Shown one piece after another: positions 4,546 to 19,824 of a stretch of 30,441 bases of DNA. The DNA is from a virus. A program made the translations under genes and the position numbers. How positions within the stretch are numbered: position 1 is the first letter of the stretch; every line of letters begins with the position of its first letter. The stretch is taken from IMG/VR virus record IMGVR_UViG_3300020183_002696, positions 1-30,441 of that record; one strand, 5' to 3'. Below the pieces are notes generated by a model. It was not told where the DNA came from and did no database searches. It worked only from the letters and a program-made list of their open reading frames with translations.

Positions 4546-6318
4546 TCATTCCGCAACAGTCAAAAGCCCACCATCCACACTAGAAACCGCGTCGCCTTTT
4601 GCCCCCTGTGCACCCGCAGGCACATACAACACAGAAAACCGTTCGCCTTCGTTGGGTACACCACCAGTAGCAGAGCCGTCAGTTCCCGACGACCATGTTA
4701 ACGAATAGCAAGTTGTTGCACCGCTGTACGCACCTATTCTGCCTATGCTTCCAGTACGATACACGGATATGAGATTTCTGTCCATGCTTTGCAGATACAG
4801 AACACCTCGGAAAGCCGCAACTCCAGAACCTGGAATACTTATAAAGAGTTCAAAAATATTTGAACGGTCTATTCCGTGGTAGTCTGTTCCAGAGAAGAAC
4901 AGGGTATTTGAACCACCGTGTGGTGTAGATATTGAGTGATTTCCTGACACATATCCAGAACCAAAACTAATGCCGCTGTTGGCTGATGGGCCTGTTCCAA
5001 TAGCGGTGTACAGGTATTGGAATCCGTATGCTCCTGTTACCCCTTGTGGACCTTGTGAGCCAGTTGCACCCGCAGGACCAGTTGGGCCAGTTGCTCCTGT
5101 GGAGCCGCCACCGCCAGATATGTTTATTGTGACTTTGCCGCCAACTTTGGTAACAGTTGCGACTCCACTTCCTGTGAAATTGATGCCACGGACATCGGGT
5201 GTGATTTTCACCCCATCGTGGTACACAGCCACCTTGCCACCACCACCAGTGGACGCAAGCCAGCCCATGTCTTGTGGAGATACCTTGCCACCACCCAAAA
5301 TCTTTTTCAGAATACGGTCAAGGCGAGCCTCGTCAATGGCTACAGATTTTTCACTTGGGTCGTAGACTAGTGGGAACTTGGCAGTTAGTAAACCGCTATC
5401 GCCTTGTTCACCCTTTTCGCCCCGTTCGCCTTGTTCACCACGGTCGCCCTTGTCGCCCTTTAGTCCCCTCTCCCCCACTCGTCCCGCTTTACCGTCCGCA
5501 CCCGCCTTGCCGTCTTTTCCGTCTTTGCCGTCTTTTCCTGCAAGCCCTGGAATTCCATGTTCGCCCTTATCGCCTTTAGCACCCTTTTCGCCCCGTTCAC
5601 CGCGAGCACCGTTTTCGCCACGGTCGCCCTTGTCGCCTTTCTCACCCGTTTCACCACGCTCGCCCTTGTCGCCTGTATCGCCCTTTGGGCCCTGCTCGCC
5701 GCGTTCGCCTTGTTCACCGCGTTCTCCTTTCTCGCCACGCTCACCGTCTTTGCCGTCTTTTCCAGGTTCGCCCTTGTCGCCTGGCCACCCGTTCCATCCT
5801 GTTTCACCACGGTCGCCCTTTTCACCCCGTTCGCCCCGTTCACCACGGTCGCCTCTGTCTCCCTTTTGTGGAACAAGCCCTGCAATTTCTGAAAGCACAG
5901 TAGCCAAGCCCTTGCGGAACTCGCTGAACTGTGCCTCTGTAATGTACACATGCGGTGGCGGTGGAGGGATAAACTCTTCGCCCTCACTCAACACCACGGT
6001 TTGTGGTGTGGGCTGCACATACTCAAACAGGGTGTCTACTACACCTGTGTCCGCAGACAGCACCACCGCACGACCGCGTGGGTCAAGAAAGCAATGCTCG
6101 CCAAGCCCGTCACCAATTTTCAAAATATACGGATTACTTGCGGCTGCTTGGGTTTGGGAAATGTAAGTAAAGGTGTCACCAATAGAGTAACTAGTGCCCT
6201 TGACGCGATGAGTCAGGGTAAACTGCGACCCAAAGCCGTAACGCCCCTCCGAAAACGGCAGGGGCTTTTGTGGCTCTTGCGAGTCTTTAGACTGTGAGAA
6301 TCGCTTGAACTGTTCCAT
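4546..6318 (-). CDS. Collagen-like virion fibre protein
   Basis: This is a 590-residue fibre protein in four parts. Residues 1-152 form an N-terminal domain with a poly-proline stretch (IPPPPPPHV near 117-124) and a short helix. Residues 153-308 are 52 uninterrupted Gly-X-Y triplets, mostly GER, GEK, GDK, GDR and GKD, expected to form a charge-stabilised triple helix. Residues of about 310-405 are a linker domain, followed by a second, uncharged set of eight triplets (GAT, GPT, GPA, GSQ type). The last 150 residues look like a beta-rich trimeric tip. Phage collagen repeats are known in tail and head fibres. The opposite strand is open for 262 codons here only because of the repeat. Confidence 0.85.
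   Translation of the reverse strand: MEQFKRFSQSKDSQEPQKPLPFSEGRYGFGSQFTLTHRVKGTSYSIGDTFTYISQTQAAASNPYILKIGDGLGEHCFLDPRGRAVVLSADTGVVDTLFEYVQPTPQTVVLSEGEEFIPPPPPHVYITEAQFSEFRKGLATVLSEIAGLVPQKGDRGDRGERGERGEKGDRGETGWNGWPGDKGEPGKDGKDGERGEKGERGEQGERGEQGPKGDTGDKGERGETGEKGDKGDRGENGARGERGEKGAKGDKGEHGIPGLAGKDGKDGKDGKAGADGKAGRVGERGLKGDKGDRGEQGERGEKGEQGDSGLLTAKFPLVYDPSEKSVAIDEARLDRILKKILGGGKVSPQDMGWLASTGGGGKVAVYHDGVKITPDVRGINFTGSGVATVTKVGGKVTINISGGGGSTGATGPTGPAGATGSQGPQGVTGAYGFQYLYTAIGTGPSANSGISFGSGYVSGNHSISTPHGGSNTLFFSGTDYHGIDRSNIFELFISIPGSGVAAFRGVLYLQSMDRNLISVYRTGSIGRIGAYSGATTCYSLTWSSGTDGSATGGVPNEGERFSVLYVPAGAQGAKGDAVSSVDGGLLTVAE
5395..5862 (-). repeat. Collagen-like Gly-X-Y repeat (52 triplets)
   Basis: The 468 bases encode 52 consecutive Gly-X-Y triplets without interruption. 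Acidic residues dominate X and basic residues dominate Y, a pattern that stabilises bacterial and phage triple helices without hydroxyproline. The 9-base periodic DNA is a likely site of length change by slippage or recombination. Confidence 0.9.
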
Positions 6319-12102: not shown

Positions 12103-13071
12103 TCACACGAAAAGTGATTCTAAAGTACTCTCTTGTTCAGTTTTCCATCCAATCGCATTTGTAATACTGCGGAGTGGTTCAAGAAATGCTTTATCAAATT
12201 GCATTTCCCAATTCACATATTTTGTTAGACCGAATTCAGGAGGCAGGGTAGTCGTAAAACCAACCACATGCTCGTGAATAGGATTAGGAGTCTTCAAATA
12301 GATAAACTTAATCTTTTCGCCTTCGCCAATAATCCTGTACTTCTTGCCCAACTTTTGCTTACGCACCAAGTGGTTGTGGAGCAGGGCGGCTTTCACCGCA
12401 ATAGGTGTGGATTTACGATATACGCATTGTGAGTCTTTATACCCGTCCAATCCGTTTGCAGAACGGGGAAACGCCATTGATTCAGGAGGCAGGGCTTTGA
12501 ATTCTTCACGAGTGCTTTTCACAAATGCCTGTAGTGTAGTCTCGTCTTGCAGCAGCACCATCTCAACGGCTTTCTTTAGAACTTTACGAACCCACGCAGG
12601 AGTACTGGAACGGGTGGTTTCAATACCCATGATTTTGAACTTGGGGGTCTTGTACTGCACACCCTCGCTGTTCCACACCGAAAGCATGTACCGCTTCTTG
12701 GCAGTCCACACACCCTTCTGTGCAATCACTTCCCGCCCCATTACCATCTTGTTGCTGTACGCATTCATTACATCCGCAAGACTGGCAAACTCTTTGTCAA
12801 TAAACGGCTGCAAGATGCGGTCGCAGAAACGATTCAAAAAGTCCACAACCTTTTCAGGTTCGTGCTCGCCCTTGAACGACTGCTTGACTGCTTCACCCAA
12901 TCGCAAGTACACAGAGTCGGTGTCGCTTGCAATCACATAGTCTTGCCCATCCGTCTTGAATATCTTGTTTAGATACCTGTTGAGTGCTTCGCCAATCCAT
13001 TGAATGCTTAACTGCCCCGACAGGGTAATAGCCTCTGCAAGTGCCACATCAAAGAAACGGAAGTACTCGTT
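12103..13071 (-). CDS. DNA polymerase family B, C-terminal segment (gp43-like)
   Basis: This frame continues the polymerase from the residues after motif B to the C-terminus (322 residues). It starts in mid-domain: NEYFRFFDVALAEAITLSGQLS follows the conserved GAIG of the segment at 13074-13193. Motif C, ASDTDSVYLRLG, lies at about residues 48-59 with the two catalytic aspartates intact. The thumb region ends ESTLESLFV. No ATG or ribosome site stands at the start. The first possible initiator is a GTG at 13047, which would lose conserved residues. The segment therefore probably depends on recoding from the upstream frame (a shift of 5 bases) or the gene is broken. Catalytic residues and codon use look intact, which argues against decay. 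Confidence 0.85.
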   Translation of the reverse strand, partial: NEYFRFFDVALAEAITLSGQLSIQWIGEALNRYLNKIFKTDGQDYVIASDTDSVYLRLGEAVKQSFKGEHEPEKVVDFLNRFCDRILQPFIDKEFASLADVMNAYSNKMVMGREVIAQKGVWTAKKRYMLSVWNSEGVQYKTPKFKIMGIETTRSSTPAWVRKVLKKAVEMVLLQDETTLQAFVKSTREEFKALPPESMAFPRSANGLDGYKDSQCVYRKSTPIAVKAALLHNHLVRKQKLGKKYRIIGEGEKIKFIYLKTPNPIHEHVVGFTTTLPPEFGLTKYVNWEMQFDKAFLEPLRSITNAIGWKTEQESTLESLFV

Positions 13072-13079
13072 ACCTAACC
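13072..13079 (-). other. Candidate recoding site: GGT, TAG stop, GGT (bypass of 5 bases)
   Basis: The eight bases read GGTTAGGT. The motif-B frame ends GCG ATT GGT TAG. A second GGT at 13074-13072 is followed directly by AAC GAG TAC TTC, which encodes the residues expected after GAIG in family B polymerases. Re-pairing of the glycyl-tRNA from the first GGT to the second would skip exactly 5 bases and restore the conserved protein. T4 gene 60 uses matched glycine codons with a UAG after the take-off codon in the same manner over 50 bases. Alternatives are a -1 shift that inserts Leu-Gly, separate polypeptides, or a mutation. Confidence 0.5.
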
Positions 13080-13193
13080 AATCGCACCGTAGGCAGAGTT
13101 CAGTTGGATTTTTCTAACCAACTGAAAATTACGATATTTTGAGATATCGTATTCTGTCTGCCTACGAAGCGATTGCAATTCCTCCGTAGTCAT
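13074..13193 (-). CDS. DNA polymerase family B, motif B segment (39-residue frame)
   Basis: The ATG overlaps the stop of the GIY-YIG gene (ATGA), so translation can restart by coupling. The 39 residues run MTTEELQSLRRQ, then KYRNFQLVRKIQLNSAYGAIG, and stop at TAG. The second part is polymerase motif B (KxxxNxxQ(L)xxKKIxLNSxYGAxG), which binds the incoming nucleotide. Without the insertion the ancestral reading would have been LKKRG-MTTEEL, joining the segment at 13948-15444 smoothly. On its own this peptide cannot be active; joined to the frame at 12103-13071 it would form a 361-residue C-terminal polymerase subunit. The same bases form a strong inverted-repeat structure. Confidence 0.75.
   Translation of the reverse strand: MTTEELQSLRRQTEYDISKYRNFQLVRKIQLNSAYGAIG
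13079..13175 (-). other. Three-way-junction inverted repeat over polymerase motif B
   Basis: An outer stem pairs 13079-13097 with 13157-13175 (18 of 19 positions on the minus strand, counting one G-U pair). Inside it two hairpins are perfect: 13099-13107 with 13118-13126 (9 pairs) and 13130-13137 with 13144-13151 (8 pairs). The linkers are only 5, 3 and 1 bases, so the whole folds as a compact three-way junction. The 3' arm encodes the invariant polymerase residues, whereas the 5' arm encodes a variable linker that appears to have adapted to pair with it. It ends at the GGT codon of the candidate recoding site. Confidence 0.75.
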
Positions 13194-13906
13194 TTTTGAG
13201 TAATTTGTTGACATAACCATCCTTTTGAACGACCTCTGTTTGGTGTAATACCATTCTTACTGGTTTTCCACAATGTAGTATACGCTAAATTTCTACTGAT
13301 GCAAAATTCTTCCAATCTATTTGTTTGGTGTTCTTTTCCACTTGGGTCTATAATTTTAAACCAAGAAGATAGAGCATCTCTCATTTTTGATTTGTTTTTT
13401 CTCCAATGGTTTTTTGATTTTTTACTGATGATTTTCTTAAACGATGATGGTCTTGTAGAACCATTATTTTTTTCTGTTGCTTTTTTTAGATTTGTAATTG
13501 CTATTTGCTTGTATTTGTATGGATTCATGCTTTTTGTTTTTTTAACAGCAGATACACATTTCCTGACAGTTTTTGGGTTTTTCATGGCATTGTTTTTGCC
13601 AAGATTTATTCCCATTTTGTTCACATAGTCCCATCCACCAATTCCTCCTGTTTTTATGTTGTAACAGGAAGGATTGTTTATATGTTCTGCTATTATCTTT
13701 TGTTCTTGTTCATACATTTCTTCTCTTGATGAACACATAGATAGTATTTCTTTTTTGAATGCTTCTTTTCCATATTTTTCTATGGCTTTGTTTAATACTG
13801 TCCCACTGCCAAGATAAGAGTCGTTTTCGTTGTCTGTTTCATGTGCACCGATGTAAAACTTTTTGTTTATCTTGTTGGTTGTCTTGTAAATTAAATACTT
13901 TCTCAT
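13190..13906 (-). CDS. GIY-YIG homing endonuclease inserted in the DNA polymerase gene
   Basis: This 238-residue protein starts MRKYLIYKTTNKINKKFYIGAHE, an N-terminal GIY-YIG nuclease domain (YLIY, then YIG), with an R/E-rich helix and the conserved Asn (CYNIKTGGIGG) near residue 80-90. A NUMOD3-type segment (NLGKNNAMKN) lies near residue 105, and a C-terminal DNA-binding repeat (EHQTNRLEEFC then GRSKGWLCQ) near 190-235. The gene is much AT-richer and lysine-richer than the flanking polymerase, a sign of transfer. It fills nearly the whole gap between polymerase segments: 41 bases before, none after, so there is no room for a group I intron core. It is therefore a free-standing endonuclease that splits the gene. 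Confidence 0.92.
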   Translation of the reverse strand: MRKYLIYKTTNKINKKFYIGAHETDNENDSYLGSGTVLNKAIEKYGKEAFKKEILSMCSSREEMYEQEQKIIAEHINNPSCYNIKTGGIGGWDYVNKMGINLGKNNAMKNPKTVRKCVSAVKKTKSMNPYKYKQIAITNLKKATEKNNGSTRPSSFKKIISKKSKNHWRKNKSKMRDALSSWFKIIDPSGKEHQTNRLEEFCISRNLAYTTLWKTSKNGITPNRGRSKGWLCQQITQK

Positions 13907-13947: not shown

Positions 13948-15444
13948 CTAAAGTATCCCTCTCTTTTTTAGTTCCTCTTCTATTTCCACTAATTTCTTCT
14001 CTGATTGAAGCATCAATTGCTTGAACCGCTTGCGTTCCTCGTACATGATTTCCATGAGTTCAGGCAGGAACCCGTGACGGTCTTTGCGGAACGCCACACC
14101 GTTGGCAGCAATAGACAGTTTGCTCTGTTTGGCGTGGTTCAAGTATTCCGCAGGGTCAAGAAACGCGGTGACAGGCTCGCCACGATTCCTGCTCAAGATG
14201 GAGTCGGGTGTAATATTGTTCCGCTTCCACAGGGGGCTAGCGTCTTTGGTTTCAGGTGAAATATTGTACTGCATGATAAGATGTGGGTACAGTGAGTTCA
14301 AGTCAAAACTCACCACCCAATCGTGCATTCCCACAAGGGGGTCTTTCACATACGCACCCGCGTACTGTTCCTTCTTTTCCGCTTCACGCTTCTGTGGAAC
14401 CACCATGCCCTTGCTCATCAGGTGGTGATGAATAATGGCATCCCATGTGCGAACCTGTGAGAACACATCCTCAAAGTTTACTCGGGCAGAATACGCAAGA
14501 GCAACCGCAAGGTCAAGCAGTTTTAGTTTCTCTTCCAGTTTGGCAACCAGTTCCACATCCTTGTAGTTGTACTCCATGAACTTTTGGAAGTTCTGTGTGT
14601 AGAACTCTTGCAGGGTTTCGTACTCGCTATACGACAACTTTTCCTCGCCCAACTCCACCGAACACACATGGTTGAGTGAGTACGACTCTTGCTTCACATA
14701 GGTAAACTTTAGGTACAACTCCAAGTAGTCAAGGGTGGACACGCCACCAATAGTAAACACCCGTTGGTCGCGTCCCATTCGGTTCACGGTGGTTTCACGC
14801 AGCCGCCCCCACGGTGAAAGGGCGTTTGCCCACTCGTCCGCAATCCAATTCATGCGAGCCACCATGTACGGAATATCAAAGAATCGGATGTTCCATCCTG
14901 TCACAATGTCAGGGTCTTCGTGCTTCCAAATCTCCACGAATCGTCGGAGCAGCGACTCCTCATCGGCAAAGCACTCTGCTTCCACACCTTCCAGTGTGAA
15001 ATCACCAAGCCCAAGCACATAGGTCTTGCTGCCCACCGTGAGGGTAATAGCAATGATGCGTTCGGTTGGGGAATCAGGCGACGGGAAGCCGCCGTCGCAC
15101 GAAGTCTCAATATCCAAGTACGCCACACGCAGACGGGAGAAGTCGTACTCTACTTCGTGCGGAAACTCTTTATACAAGTACTGATATACGAAACTTGTGT
15201 TGCCGTACACTTCAAAGTTGCTGACATCCTTGTACTGGTCAATAAACTGCCGTGCTTCGTGAACCCCTTCAAAAGTAATGGGTTCCACGGGATTGCCGTA
15301 GATGGTGGTGAGTCCTGTGTGTTCTTTAGATTTGATATACAGCGTTGGGCAGAACGGCACGGCTTCGTGTACACGACACCCGTTTCGCCATCCGCGATAC
15401 AGCACATTCTTGCCACGAAGGTCAACGCTTGTATAGAAGTCCAT
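13948..15444 (-). CDS. DNA polymerase family B, N-terminal segment (exonuclease and motif A)
   Basis: This 498-residue part holds the N-terminal and 3'-5' exonuclease domains and the start of the polymerase domain. Exonuclease motifs are DIET at 111-114, NIRFFD at 185-190 and YNYKD at 292-296. Motif A, DLNSLYP, is at 381-387, followed by the GFLPELMEIMYEERKRFKQLM helix. It ends ELKKRGIL at a TAG where the endonuclease cassette was inserted; the last residues (IL) come from the cassette. Motifs B and C are encoded separately downstream. Split gp43 genes, with two subunits that assemble, are known in some Aeromonas T4-like phages. The start ATG overlaps the methyltransferase stop (TAATG). Confidence 0.93.
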   Translation of the reverse strand: MDFYTSVDLRGKNVLYRGWRNGCRVHEAVPFCPTLYIKSKEHTGLTTIYGNPVEPITFEGVHEARQFIDQYKDVSNFEVYGNTSFVYQYLYKEFPHEVEYDFSRLRVAYLDIETSCDGGFPSPDSPTERIIAITLTVGSKTYVLGLGDFTLEGVEAECFADEESLLRRFVEIWKHEDPDIVTGWNIRFFDIPYMVARMNWIADEWANALSPWGRLRETTVNRMGRDQRVFTIGGVSTLDYLELYLKFTYVKQESYSLNHVCSVELGEEKLSYSEYETLQEFYTQNFQKFMEYNYKDVELVAKLEEKLKLLDLAVALAYSARVNFEDVFSQVRTWDAIIHHHLMSKGMVVPQKREAEKKEQYAGAYVKDPLVGMHDWVVSFDLNSLYPHLIMQYNISPETKDASPLWKRNNITPDSILSRNRGEPVTAFLDPAEYLNHAKQSKLSIAANGVAFRKDRHGFLPELMEIMYEERKRFKQLMLQSEKKLVEIEEELKKRGIL

Positions 15445-16190
15445 TATGTTCCTGTTAGTTCTTTGATTCGTATTAGTGACTTGTCAAAATAGTCTTTATT
15501 CAATTCGCAACCAACGAAGTTTCTGTTGGTGTTGTGTGCGGCTATGGCAGTTGAACCACTTCCGCTGAAACAGTCTACCACAGTTTCTCCAGTTTTGGTA
15601 TAGGCACTTATGAGTCTTTCCAATAAAAATATCGGCTTCTGTGTTGGATGCCAATTAACATATTCTTTGCTCATTGTGTGATTATTTTTTTCCCAAACAT
15701 CTGTCGGTATCTTTCCAAGTGGATTATTAGCGGCAGTCTTACGAACATTTGTTTTTACTTTATAGGGTATACGAACAGCATCAGCATCAAACAAAAAATC
15801 TTCACCTTTACTATACACCAACAAATCTTCGTGTTTTCTCGCAAATGATTTCTTGCTTCTCCCACCCCAATCGTAGTGCCAAATAATCCAATTCTGATAT
15901 GTTAGTTGGAGTTTATTGAGAACTTCAAGTTTGTACTTCAAGAATGTATCTGTCTTGGTTGTTCCCCAAACACAAAAACACCGATTTGGTTTTAGGACAC
16001 GAAAACATTCTCTACTCCATTCGTGACACCAATCAAGATATTCTAATTCACTACCCCACTGGTTGTCCCAATCATTCTTAACAATTTCAAAGTAAGGGGG
16101 GTCAACAAGAATCATATCCACAGAATTGTCCTGTAGAGACGATAAAAACTGTAGGCAATCCTCGTTTTTTATCTTGTTGTTTGTTTCCAT
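15444..16190 (-). CDS. DNA adenine/cytosine-N4 methyltransferase (DPPY, beta-type order)
   Basis: This 248-residue enzyme transfers a methyl group from AdoMet to an exocyclic amino group in DNA. Catalytic motif IV, DPPY, is at 30-33, before the AdoMet-binding motif I, DCFSGSGST, at 206-214, which is the beta-class order. HPTQKP at 181-186 is motif X. DPPY favours N6-adenine. The ATG at 16190 is chosen because it overlaps the GroES-like stop codon (TAATG) with GGTGGA upstream; a longer reading from 16214 is possible. It is AT-rich compared with the polymerase gene after it. It may protect phage DNA from restriction or pair with the nuclease-like gene two genes upstream. Confidence 0.9.
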   Translation of the reverse strand: METNNKIKNEDCLQFLSSLQDNSVDMILVDPPYFEIVKNDWDNQWGSELEYLDWCHEWSRECFRVLKPNRCFCVWGTTKTDTFLKYKLEVLNKLQLTYQNWIIWHYDWGGRSKKSFARKHEDLLVYSKGEDFLFDADAVRIPYKVKTNVRKTAANNPLGKIPTDVWEKNNHTMSKEYVNWHPTQKPIFLLERLISAYTKTGETVVDCFSGSGSTAIAAHNTNRNFVGCELNKDYFDKSLIRIKELTGT

Positions 16191-16456
16191 TATCGTTCCA
16201 CCATTGCAATCCAATCCTGATGAACCAAGTCCTTGCCATCATACCCGCGACCAAGATTCTTTGTCAAGTCCCATATCACCTTGTCGCCTATTTTAATGTC
16301 TTCGGTCAGGTCGGGGCCAATATCCACAACTTCACCCCATACCATTTTGCAAGTCACCTTTTCGGTGTAAATAATTCCTGCTTCGGTGGTTTTCTGCCCA
16401 CCTAGTTTGGTTGCGACTAGTGCCCATTTTCCGATTGGCTTGAGTTTCTTTTTCAT
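16190..16456 (-). CDS. GroES-like co-chaperonin
   Basis: The 88 residues match the single-domain Cpn10 fold: KPIGKWALVATK at the N-terminus, a mobile-loop segment QKTTEAGIIYTEK whose GIIY corresponds to the GroES GIVL contact with GroEL, then WGEVVDIGP, IKIGDKVIWD and a C-terminal DWIAMVER strand like DILAIVEA. T4 encodes a functional analogue, gp31, to help fold its capsid protein. Length is slightly below the usual 95 residues. It starts on an ATGA overlap with the nuclease-like gene. A shorter relative (16996-17214) shares its first 25 residues. The call rests on the motif pattern. Confidence 0.72.
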   Translation of the reverse strand: MKKKLKPIGKWALVATKLGGQKTTEAGIIYTEKVTCKMVWGEVVDIGPDLTEDIKIGDKVIWDLTKNLGRGYDGKDLVHQDWIAMVER

Positions 16457-16995: not shown

Positions 16996-17214
16996 TTATT
17001 TGTTGTTGGGCAAAGATACAACAGCAGTTATACTGCCATCGTCCTCCTGTTCAAGTCGCACTACGGGAAGGTACACCACGCCACCCATCAATGGGTCGGT
17101 GTACGCTTTAACATTGATTTTAACATCAATGCCTGCTTCGGTGGTTTTCTTCTTGCCACCACCAACATTTTGCATTTCAATCCATTCTCCGATAGGTCTT
17201 AAATTTTCGCTCAC
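16996..17214 (-). CDS. Truncated or diverged GroES-like small protein (72 aa)
   Basis: This 72-residue protein starts at a GTG that overlaps the methyltransferase stop (GTGA). Its first 25 residues, LRPIGEW then GGGKKKTTEAGI, closely match the N-terminus and mobile loop of the GroES-like protein at 16190-16456 (LKPIGKW then GGQKTTEAGI). After that the two diverge. The C-terminal 40 residues (MGGVVYLPVVRLEQEDDGSITAVVS) still look like beta strands but lack the DWIAMVE end. It may be a co-chaperonin-derived protein with a new role or a decaying copy. The coupling to the methyltransferase and the conserved loop argue that it is translated. Confidence 0.6.
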   Translation of the reverse strand: MSENLRPIGEWIEMQNVGGGKKKTTEAGIDVKINVKAYTDPLMGGVVYLPVVRLEQEDDGSITAVVSLPNNK

Positions 17215-18521
17215 CTTAACATCCTTTCTAAAGTATTAGGTACTTCTTCAGTAATTCGTGCTTCTGCAATCCGCACATATTCAGGATTTAGTTCGGTTCC
17301 AATGTACTTGCGTCCGTTGTTGAGTGCCACTACAGCAGTTGTGCCGCTGCCTGTAAACGGGTCAAACACCGTGCATGGAACAACCTCTGCATCTGAACAG
17401 TTACAAGTCTTTTCCCAACCATTCTCTACGGCTCCTTCCCCCCAAGTAAGAAGAGTGTATCCCTTCTTCTTAAACTGTGTTCTTCTTCCGTTACTGATGG
17501 GGATATCGTTCCATTGCTCGGTGTGCTTGTCTCCTTCAACAGAGATGCGATAGTCACCACCGTTAGCCTCAAGCCAAAGAACCGTCGCACTATCTTCGGG
17601 AGTTAGTGTAACACCTTTACGCTCAATAGGCTCAACAGGCTCCAAGTTCTTTGTTGGTTTGGAAGTTTGCCTTTTCCAAGGAGTTCCACATTTTGAACAA
17701 CATCCGTGTTCGCTGCTTCCTGCCAAGATGCAAGGCAGAATCAAGTCCTTGGGATAGGTAGCAAAGTGAGCACCCTTGTATGCCTTGGTAGTCACAGTCC
17801 ATACCGAACGCTTGTTACGCTTGCCGTCAGAAGCCCACACACGGTCAGGTTCCAGTGCAGGGTCACGAGCACCCTTGTCCTCGGGCTGTGTGCGGTTTTT
17901 ATTTCCAGGAGCATGAGGCTTGCCTACTGCTGCTTCTTTTATTGCTTGGTGGTCGTAATAATACTTTGGTTGTTTGGTCAACATGAAAATGTACTCGTGA
18001 GACTTGGTGCAACGGTCAGTCACACTTTCAGGCATGGGGTTGGGCTTGTTCCAAATGATGTCTTGTCGTAGATACCACCCATCGGCTTGCAGAGCAAGTG
18101 CCACACGCCACGGAATACCAATCAGGTCTTTGTGCTTGAGTCCGCTCTTCTTGGCTCCTGCCTTGCCCTTTTGTGACACGCCCTTGTAGCCGTCTGCGTA
18201 CTTAATCTTGCCGTATGCGGGAGTAGCACCGCCCATCTTACGCAACTGCTCCATGCCGCCGCTTGTGGTGGCATACGAATCGCCAAGGTTCAACCACAGG
18301 GTTCCGTCGTCACGCAGGATGCGACGAGCCTCACGAAATACCTCCACCATTTTCTGCACATACTGCTCGGGAGTTTCTTCACACCCAATCTCTTCGCTGC
18401 CGCCGTCGTAGTCCCTAAGCCCGTAATACGGAGGAGATGTAATAATAGTGTGGACGCACCCATCAGGCAGCGTCTTCATGCCGGTGATGCAGTCGCCTAG
18501 TATAATTTGGTGAGTACTCAT
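17211..18521 (-). CDS. DNA methyltransferase (N4/N6 type) with a zinc-binding-like insertion
   Basis: This 436-residue enzyme has motif IV TSPPYYGLRDY at about 28-38 and AdoMet motif I VFDPFTGSGTT at 385-395, the beta-class order. SPPY is typical for N4-cytosine methylation but also occurs in N6-adenine enzymes. Between them lie IPWRVALALQADGWYLRQDIIWNKPNPMPES, a conserved block of this family, and a region with CCSKC (near 276) and CNCS (near 374) that could bind zinc. The ATG at 18521 overlaps the stop of the gene before it (TGATG). It is the second methyltransferase of the block; the target sequence is unknown. Confidence 0.9.
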   Translation of the reverse strand: MSTHQIILGDCITGMKTLPDGCVHTIITSPPYYGLRDYDGGSEEIGCEETPEQYVQKMVEVFREARRILRDDGTLWLNLGDSYATTSGGMEQLRKMGGATPAYGKIKYADGYKGVSQKGKAGAKKSGLKHKDLIGIPWRVALALQADGWYLRQDIIWNKPNPMPESVTDRCTKSHEYIFMLTKQPKYYYDHQAIKEAAVGKPHAPGNKNRTQPEDKGARDPALEPDRVWASDGKRNKRSVWTVTTKAYKGAHFATYPKDLILPCILAGSSEHGCCSKCGTPWKRQTSKPTKNLEPVEPIERKGVTLTPEDSATVLWLEANGGDYRISVEGDKHTEQWNDIPISNGRRTQFKKKGYTLLTWGEGAVENGWEKTCNCSDAEVVPCTVFDPFTGSGTTAVVALNNGRKYIGTELNPEYVRIAEARITEEVPNTLERMLR

Positions 18522-18907
18522 CAATATTTTGTTCCACGCACAAAGAACTGCTCTTCGTATTCTTCAAACCCAAAGCACTCCCTAGCATACTGTAGAATGA
18601 TGTCTTTGTCAAACTTGTTGCACGAGTACACATCAAGTGTAATAAATCGTTTGGGTTCCATTGAGTGAATCTGAATTCCACTTTCAATCAGCGGAACCCA
18701 ACCACTAACGCCTGCCTTGTCGGGATACAGTTCCCTTCCGTTCTGTGTTGGCCCGTGCATCACCACAGGTTGGCTCATTCGGGTCATGCCAATCTTGTCT
18801 ACAACCCGTTCAAGAAAACGGTAGTGTAGTTCCAAGTCATCGGCTGCTCCAACGCGACAACTGTACATGTCCAAGTAATACGAATATCCAAACGGTTTAC
18901 TTTCCAT
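18521..18907 (-). CDS. S-adenosylmethionine decarboxylase-like protein
   Basis: The prokaryotic enzyme (SpeD) cuts itself at a serine to make a pyruvoyl group and decarboxylates AdoMet, giving the aminopropyl donor for spermidine. In this 128-residue protein Ser76 (in ESGIQIHS), His81 and Cys96 (DVYSCNK) have exactly the 5 and 15 residue spacing of the bacterial catalytic Ser63, His68 and Cys83, and the cut site Glu-Ser is kept. The usual ESHISIHTWPE is changed to ESGIQIHSMEP, so a substrate or partner change is possible. speD genes are known in cyanophages. It lies between a Mom-like gene and a methyltransferase that uses AdoMet. Confidence 0.72.
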   Translation of the reverse strand: MESKPFGYSYYLDMYSCRVGAADDLELHYRFLERVVDKIGMTRMSQPVVMHGPTQNGRELYPDKAGVSGWVPLIESGIQIHSMEPKRFITLDVYSCNKFDKDIILQYARECFGFEEYEEQFFVRGTKY

Positions 18908-18909
18908 AA

Positions 18910-19824
18910 TTATTTTCCTCGTTCTTTAGGATACTGCTTGGGTGGATTACGCCCCTCAAACTCCCGCCGCAACTTCTTGGTTTCGGCTTTGGTAGCACCC
19001 AACACAAAAGCGTACTTGTGCTTGCTGGGCATCTGAATCTTTTGGGATTGGCTCTGCTTGGTCTTGCTGTGGGCACGAAGTTGTGCTTCCACCCCCGCAG
19101 GCACATTCTCCCACAACATGCGTTGGTCGTTGTTCCAATCCCGTTCCCACTTGATGCCCAACTCTTTGGCGTATTTCTTGTACGCACTACGCACACGGAA
19201 AAAGCGGTCGCTTACAACCTTGCCTGTGTACGGATTGATGTACCGTGTGGTGGTTCCTGACTCCTGCCCCAAGTAGTACCAGTTACACGCTTGGTAAATG
19301 GTTCCCAACTCTTTGGCAGTAGGGTCAGAGTACGCGGTGAACAGGCGATATGGTGTATTCTTCACCATCCACCCACAGCACCACATAAGGAATGAACTTG
19401 CAAGATTCTTGGGACTCCACGACACACACGCACCACGGCTAACCAACCGCTCTAGTGTTTTGGTGTCTTCACCCAACAGTTTGGAAAATGCGTTGGGCAT
19501 GTTCATCAGGATGACTCCTGCCATGATGTCTTTGCCAATCAGCCCTTGATTGGGGTCGTGGTAGTACGCACCAAACCAGTGTGTGGTGTACTGTGACAGG
19601 TTGCCCAACCACTCGTGTCGCTTAATGAACGCTACGGCTTGGGCACGGTCTTGGGGAGTTGTTAGCGGTCGGAATACAAAATCAGAAACCCGAAGGGCTT
19701 GTGCAGCGGCTTCGGTTAGTCCTGCGGCTTTCAGGTCGTCTTCGCGGTTGCGTAGACGAATATCGTATTGCCAGCAGTGGTCTTTGTTGTATTCCCGCAG
19801 ACACGGGTTTTCGGTTTCACTCAC
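18910..19824 (-). CDS. Mom-like DNA modification protein (second, diverged copy)
   Basis: The 304-residue protein shares the Mom-type block order with the gene at 11260: a first strand around FIKRHEWLGNL, a strand HWFGAYYH, IMAGVILMNMPNAF, LVSRGACVSWSPKNLASSFLMW, and the C-terminal signature TAYSDPTAKELGTIYQACNWYYLG near 168-191 (compare ADGxxGxxGYVYQSANFLYGG). A basic C-terminal third (residues of about 220-304) is likely to contact DNA. It starts at a GTG overlapping the preceding stop (GTGA) with GGAG upstream. Identity with the first copy is low, so they may act on different sites or have different acyl donors. The assignment is by pattern. Confidence 0.55.
   Translation of the reverse strand: MSETENPCLREYNKDHCWQYDIRLRNREDDLKAAGLTEAAAQALRVSDFVFRPLTTPQDRAQAVAFIKRHEWLGNLSQYTTHWFGAYYHDPNQGLIGKDIMAGVILMNMPNAFSKLLGEDTKTLERLVSRGACVSWSPKNLASSFLMWCCGWMVKNTPYRLFTAYSDPTAKELGTIYQACNWYYLGQESGTTTRYINPYTGKVVSDRFFRVRSAYKKYAKELGIKWERDWNNDQRMLWENVPAGVEAQLRAHSKTKQSQSQKIQMPSKHKYAFVLGATKAETKKLRREFEGRNPPKQYPKERGK

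Follow-up and report, generated by a model that had tools for sequence, protein, structure and literature searches.

The question raised by this locus is how one polymerase chain could be read from a gene in which the frame ends at a stop codon within polymerase motif B and the conserved continuation resumes five bases further on. The locus lies in the window, the whole stretch of 30,441 nucleotides that was analysed, which is an IMG/VR virus record (IMGVR_UViG_3300020183_002696) for which there is no larger genome. There, on the minus strand, the gene for a family-B DNA polymerase is divided into an N-terminal piece, a GIY-YIG endonuclease gene and a C-terminal piece. The N-terminal piece (43A-like; 13948..15444, -; Pfam PF03104 at 8e-26 and PF00136 at 1.7e-17) comprises the exonuclease domain and the start of the polymerase domain, and its C-terminus reads ...EEELKKRGIL before the stop. 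The gene that splits the polymerase (13190..13906, -) is assigned to the Seg-like GIY-YIG homing endonucleases by Pfam and homology: the match to SegE_GIY-YIG (PF19835) reaches 20.6 bits, under the cut-off of 25, and the protein is homologous to the annotated GIY-YIG/Seg endonucleases in the split gene 43 of the Aeromonas phages phiAS4 and Aes120. This homology bears out the statement of an earlier note on this DNA that a homing endonuclease gene splits the polymerase gene directly upstream of the site.

The C-terminal piece begins with ORF1 (43B-like; 13077..13214, -), a frame of 46 codons that reads MSTNYSKMTTEELQ...NSAYGAIG. It starts at the ATG at 13214, with a likely Shine-Dalgarno sequence, AAAGG, upstream; another possible ATG, at 13193, shares bases with the stop of the endonuclease gene. 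The piece reads ...KIQLNSAYGAIG, followed by TAG. The take-off codon is GGT (Gly 46 of ORF1; 13077..13079, -), preceded by ATT (13082-13080, minus strand) and followed by the skipped stretch TAGGT (13072..13076, -), in which the landing GGT (13074-13072) shares its first G with the last base of the stop TAG (13076-13074). The resume codon AAC (13071-13069) stands directly behind this second GGT. A skip of 5 bases gives GAIG-NEYFRFF and leads into the frame of ORF2 (12103..13071, -), the rest of the polymerase (NEYFRFF..., motif C DTDS; PF00136 at 23.4 bits and family alignment). The earlier note had described precisely this order of ATT GGT TAG, 5 bases and NEYFRFF after a second GGT, and the description proved correct when the coordinates were re-read. 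In phage T4, 50 bases of gene 60 are bypassed between GGA codons, with UAG after the take-off codon, and mobA splits the topoisomerase gene. The primary paper on the mobA cassette is reportedly that of Bonocora and colleagues from 2011, and the phage 25 polymerase is said to have been treated by Petrov and colleagues in 2010.

The same 5-base gap is present in IMG/VR contigs of two other metagenomes (L002 and L003; 100% identity over the 5,500 nt compared), and 32 distinct alleles, the window included, have a gap at this position in motif B of the polymerase; an assembly error is therefore ruled out. Looking in related phages for the gap together with the endonuclease had been the earlier note's own suggestion, and the 32 alleles carry the endonuclease or its remnant wherever the sequence allows. 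The scan for motif B followed by TAG returned a dozen polymerase loci from other phages. A scan of motif B for GGN and GGN-AAY separated by 5 inserted bases of any kind gave 19 matches; since all 19 are phage PolB genes with TAG right after the take-off codon, a stop which the scan did not require, chance is excluded. One scan pattern required TACGG and GGTTA, so the uniformity of these letters is partly selected. L137, L138, L139, L140, L143, L146 and L240 were added by scans that looked for homology to the endonuclease and took no account of the gap. L229, flagged by a broad scan, was excluded as a group I intron case, and L235 (Acinetobacter), the only match in bacterial genomes, is a chance match outside any polymerase. 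All gap carriers are metagenomic sequences: no cultured phage carrying the gap was found, and tblastn of cultured phages with ORF1 and two joined 43B proteins gave only uninterrupted polymerases among the matches listed.

A stop directly follows the take-off codon in 32/32 alleles (TAG in 26, TAA in 5, TGA in 1), and the take-off codon itself is GGT in 25, GGA in 2, CTT in 2, TCC in 2 and GCC in 1. The skipped length is 5 nt in 15 alleles and 9 nt in 5; lengths of 10, 6 and 4 nt occur in 3 alleles each, 8 nt in 2 and 11 nt in 1, so that frame changes of 0, +1 and +2 are all present. The resumed protein matches the conserved polymerase continuation in every allele (mostly N/S-x-YFR). The codon before the resume point equals the take-off codon in its first two bases in 28 of the 32, and the synonymous pairs are Gly-Gly, Ala-Ala (L085, GCC TGAATAA GCT), Leu-Leu (L138 and L140, CTT TAG CTA/CTC) and Ser-Ser (L143, TCC TAGCGAA TCT); L240 reads GGA TAA GGA. 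Such matching is partly expected, because the take-off and landing codons encode the same conserved polymerase residue. In the three 4-nt alleles (GGT TAGC) and in L139 (TCC to ACC), a fully matching landing codon is lacking. The length of ORF1 is near constant, about 44-46 codons in most alleles, and gap-free split relatives have similar starts.

Upstream of the gap, the RNA of the window folds with a z-score of -5.65 versus shuffles into a long stem, P1, around two hairpins, P2 and P3, which together form a three-way junction. The arms of P1, placed by the fold and by covariation, lie at 13157..13175 (-; 5' arm, 13175-13169 and 13167-13157) and 13079..13097 (-; 3' arm, 13097-13087 and 13085-13079). 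The 3' arm encodes motif B, NSAYGAIG, and extends up to and including the first base of the take-off codon. Inside P1, folding gives P2 (ACGATAT/ATATCGT; 13130..13151, -) and P3 (CAGTTGG/CCAACTG; 13099..13126, -); P3 is kept in a subset of the family, and the junction of the two, present in the window, is not kept in all members. A tRNA or hammerhead-like identity of the junction was rejected, as no tRNA and no Rfam family matched.

P1 is the constant element of this structure. In 23 distinct sequences, 95.7% of its cells are paired and its covariation score is 0.492, versus 0.07-0.14 in slid controls and 0.18 in shuffles. Several pairs show all four Watson-Crick types, and third-base changes in the motif B codons are matched by changes in the 5' arm, which often change the amino acid. 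The stem has 14.3/15 pairs in 23 gap alleles versus 5.0/15 in 53 gap-free controls, and its duplex energy is -29.7 kcal/mol versus -12.4 kcal/mol. A weakened remnant (13/15 pairs, -17.8 kcal/mol) is found in L130, a sister of L095 that has neither gap nor endonuclease, as if the gap had been lost. Tied to the gap by covariation and co-occurrence, P1 is a candidate stimulatory stem. In a rough calculation that assumes the mRNA exit about 14 nt behind the P site, the folding energy freed by a 5-nt forward move averages 4.6 kcal/mol in gap alleles versus 1.6 in controls, in line with the zipper motor that has been put forward for gene 60 and its 5' stem-loop (PMC5009743). No stable hairpin spans the gap in all alleles, the gap being too short for a T4-like loop; a short hairpin GUU-AGGN-AAY fits several 5-nt alleles, not all, and is not claimed. 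The earlier note had missed this RNA structure upstream of the gap, as well as the group I intron that cultured phages, described below, have at this site.

Homology to the endonuclease is found upstream in every allele with enough sequence (27 examined); three contigs are too short on that side. L211 and L219 have just a C-terminal remnant of the endonuclease, with gap and P1 kept. The endonuclease and ORF1 are 91-100% identical within the pairs L095/L103, L096/L115 and L141/L227, whereas the flanks are more divergent (mostly 55-90%) and the identity drops sharply at the gap. Aligned without gaps, ORF1 of the cassette-sharing pairs shows 0-2 synonymous differences versus 22-34 in the next 90 codons. 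An example of an empty site is L004, in which the C-terminal part is 99% identical to the window in protein, the sequence reads GAIG-NEYF directly, and high DNA identity is back right after GGTTA. The earlier note had counted gap-free relatives as evidence against bypassing; such relatives do exist, L004 among them, and are read as empty target alleles rather than as a contradiction. The endonuclease gene adjoins the gap and, as seen from the cassette comparison and from L004, co-transfers with it. These comparisons indicate that the cassette has moved between phages.

The split polymerases of L134, L135 and L136 have the endonuclease and no gap, and L134 has no P1. At motif B, the residues are changed to GSCG in L135 and to GACG in L136, perhaps another form of immunity, by recoding. 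Motif B is also recoded in L014 (GALGSEYF), unlike in its close siblings, and a different endonuclease-like ORF with a PFYVGKG motif lies elsewhere in that polymerase gene (L014:2176-2860). In L095, L103 and L106, the polymerase C-terminal gene has moved with the cassette away from the N-terminal gene. In L095 and L106, where both halves are present, they are about 4-9 kb apart, and the split enzyme must therefore work from separate genes. L085 and L086, whose polymerase carries the Ala-Ala gap, have an apparent intein at motif C downstream of the gap (between DTDS and CEGST...).

A group I intron occupies nearly the same position in other phages. In the Aeromonas phages phiAS4 and Aes120 and the E. 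coli phage G2285, the polymerase gene is split or interrupted and contains a related endonuclease, and motif B has a group I intron (RF00028 match) whose splice point, judged by sequence, lies about 5 bases before the gap position; in the record of G2285 (L229, MK327933.1), the polymerase is annotated with undeterminable intron/exon boundaries. The E. coli phage TH15 has the endonuclease, no intron and no gap. The intron and the short gap are two kinds of insertion at one polymerase site, and removal of the gap from the RNA ahead of translation, by a micro-intron, a ribozyme or editing, therefore has a precedent at this locus, where conserved RNA structure also flanks the site. Such removal is nevertheless very unlikely: 4-11 nt is too short for any known intron, an intron in the window was rejected, as no Rfam match to a catalytic intron core was obtained there, and splicing predicts no kept stop, while all 32 alleles have one and three different stops are used. 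A stop that is kept while its identity changes points to translation, not to DNA or splicing. Ordinary programmed frameshifting or stop readthrough in place of a hop is given equally little chance. GGT TAG C resembles a prfB-type +1 site, and the 4-nt alleles, which have no fully matched landing codon, may use classical +1 frameshifting; gaps of 6 and 9 nt keep the frame, as suits readthrough. A single mechanism would, however, need shifts of 0, +1 and +2, and with these three frame classes neither a single ordinary frameshift nor a reassigned stop can be the mechanism common to all. No fixed frame change at an overlapping slippery codon is seen in the family, GGT TAG offers no plausible -1 slip, and readthrough would place two or three extra residues within motif B and leave the 5-nt class unexplained. 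Reassignment of the stop was rejected on the further grounds that TAG, TAA and TGA are all used and that a 5-nt gap would break the frame anyway.

The remaining alternatives turn on the part downstream of the gap. Just after the landing site, dN/dS is 0.02-0.13 in the closest pairs, and motif C (DTDS) is intact in all sequences long enough to include it, which indicates purifying selection and a downstream part that is in use. This selection would also suit termination at the stop with the C-terminal piece made from an internal start, giving a three-piece polymerase, and the window does have a GTG 8 codons past the landing site. That arrangement is extremely improbable, as the first ATG/GTG/TTG after landing is found anywhere from codon 1 to 45 with no conserved position, the conserved residues NxYFR...GQLSIRWI would usually be lost, the chain would break in the middle of motif B, and P1 and the landing codon would be left unexplained. 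It is barely conceivable that the inverted repeat and the gap act on DNA only, as a shield against the endonuclease in a dead polymerase copy. The endonuclease does co-occur and the gap lies at its probable cleavage site; against this stand the low dN/dS past the gap with an intact motif C, the persistence of P1 and gap after deletion of the homing endonuclease gene in L211 and L219, and the presence of the endonuclease without the gap in L134-L136 (in L134 also without P1). Moreover, neither PolA nor a PolB besides the split one was found on the four contigs searched, one of which is of 178 kb.

The split gene, the joint occurrence of gap, stop, resume codon and P1 in 32 alleles, and the mobility are read directly from the sequences. 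On this basis, a 5-base bypass between matched Gly codons, linked to an endonuclease as in T4 gene 60, which the earlier note had proposed, is the best-supported reading, to which the 32 alleles, the stop, the landing codons, P1 and the mobility all contribute. Ribosomes very probably skip the stop-containing gap of 4-11 bases, and there is good confidence that a mobile cassette, made up of the GIY-YIG endonuclease gene, ORF1 of the split polymerase and the gap, has its bypass part here. In the proposed mechanism, the ribosome would reach the Gly take-off codon with the stop in the A site; the peptidyl-tRNA-Gly would then detach and re-pair 5 nt downstream on the second Gly codon, where translation would resume. 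The 3' arm of P1 would still be within the ribosome at take-off, and P1 would zip as the mRNA exits the channel and thereby pull the mRNA forward, a role modelled on what has been proposed in T4 gene 60 for its 5' stem-loop. The outcome would be a continuous 43B subunit, which would assemble with 43A into the replicative polymerase. The gap would also interrupt the putative target of the endonuclease itself, leaving the carrier immune and gap-free alleles to be cut and converted.

The likeness to T4 gene 60 and mobA, for which the bypassing precedents have been described (PMC5009743, PMC11194080, PMC3014915), extends to several features. In both, a homing endonuclease gene interrupts a replication gene essential to the phage, ORF1 is about 46 codons long (46 in T4 and mostly 44-46 here), a Gly take-off codon with an immediate stop is paired with a synonymous Gly landing codon, an mRNA stem lies upstream, and the gap is interpreted as protection against the endonuclease. 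Unlike T4, with a 50-nt gap, a topoisomerase and an HNH endonuclease, the present cases have 4-11 nt, a DNA polymerase and a GIY-YIG endonuclease, and one long stem encoded by a conserved motif (with a three-way junction in the window). Gene 60 is a single member, whereas here there are many, with Ala, Leu and Ser variants and in-frame variants. In the split gene 43 of the Aeromonas phages 25, phiAS4 and Aes120, PolB is split in the same region with a homologous GIY-YIG endonuclease, and the insertion at 43B motif B lies within about 5 bases of the gap; there, however, seg43 is accompanied by a self-splicing group I intron (RF00028) instead of a 4-11 nt gap. The 43A and 43B of phage 25 were reported to co-purify with polymerase activity (PMC2988022). 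In the mitochondria of Magnusiomyces capitatus, conserved genes likewise contain numerous inserts that are bypassed, the byp elements. An unused codon reportedly takes part in their bypassing, for which the mRNA context does not matter (PMC5009743), unlike the stop and the conserved context stem found here. Synthetic stop-hops in E. coli, with matched codons around a stop, have exactly the layout of L138, L140 and L240. No natural in-frame stop-hop is known according to PMC5009743, and these alleles would be the first natural cases known in the open-licence literature.

T4 gene 60 has been described as apparently unique in phages (PMC3014915), and reviews have long presumed that its bypass has shorter counterparts (PMC5009743). 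It is likely that the alleles form a family of short-gap bypasses (4-11 nt, the first in-frame stop-hops included) that is widespread in phage PolB, linked to the endonuclease, fills the niche of the group I intron and is driven by an mRNA zipper encoded by motif B. If the gap is bypassed, bypassing turns from a near-unique T4 curiosity into a mobile and widespread gene element, and there is a second instance, independent of the first, in which bypass evolved together with a homing endonuclease. The one site would then have two solutions, at the level of the ribosome (gap) and of the RNA (intron). The family offers candidates in an essential enzyme that vary in gap length, frame, stop, take-off residue and stem, and this natural variation makes the rules of take-off and landing testable by comparison. 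Gene callers will list such polymerases as broken.

Among the other genes of the window, one for a Mom DNA-modification family protein (PF25680; 11260-12075, -, 1e-54) adjoins the polymerase C-terminal piece directly, and another is found at 18910-19824 (-, 4e-11). N6/N4 DNA methylases (PF01555) are encoded in the replication region at 15444-16214 (-) and 17211-18524 (-), and a homologue of S-adenosylmethionine decarboxylase (PF02675, 9e-15), here in a phage, at 18521-18907 (-). The gene at 4546-6318 (-) encodes a structural-looking protein with long collagen-like GxY repeats (PF01391, 7e-32).
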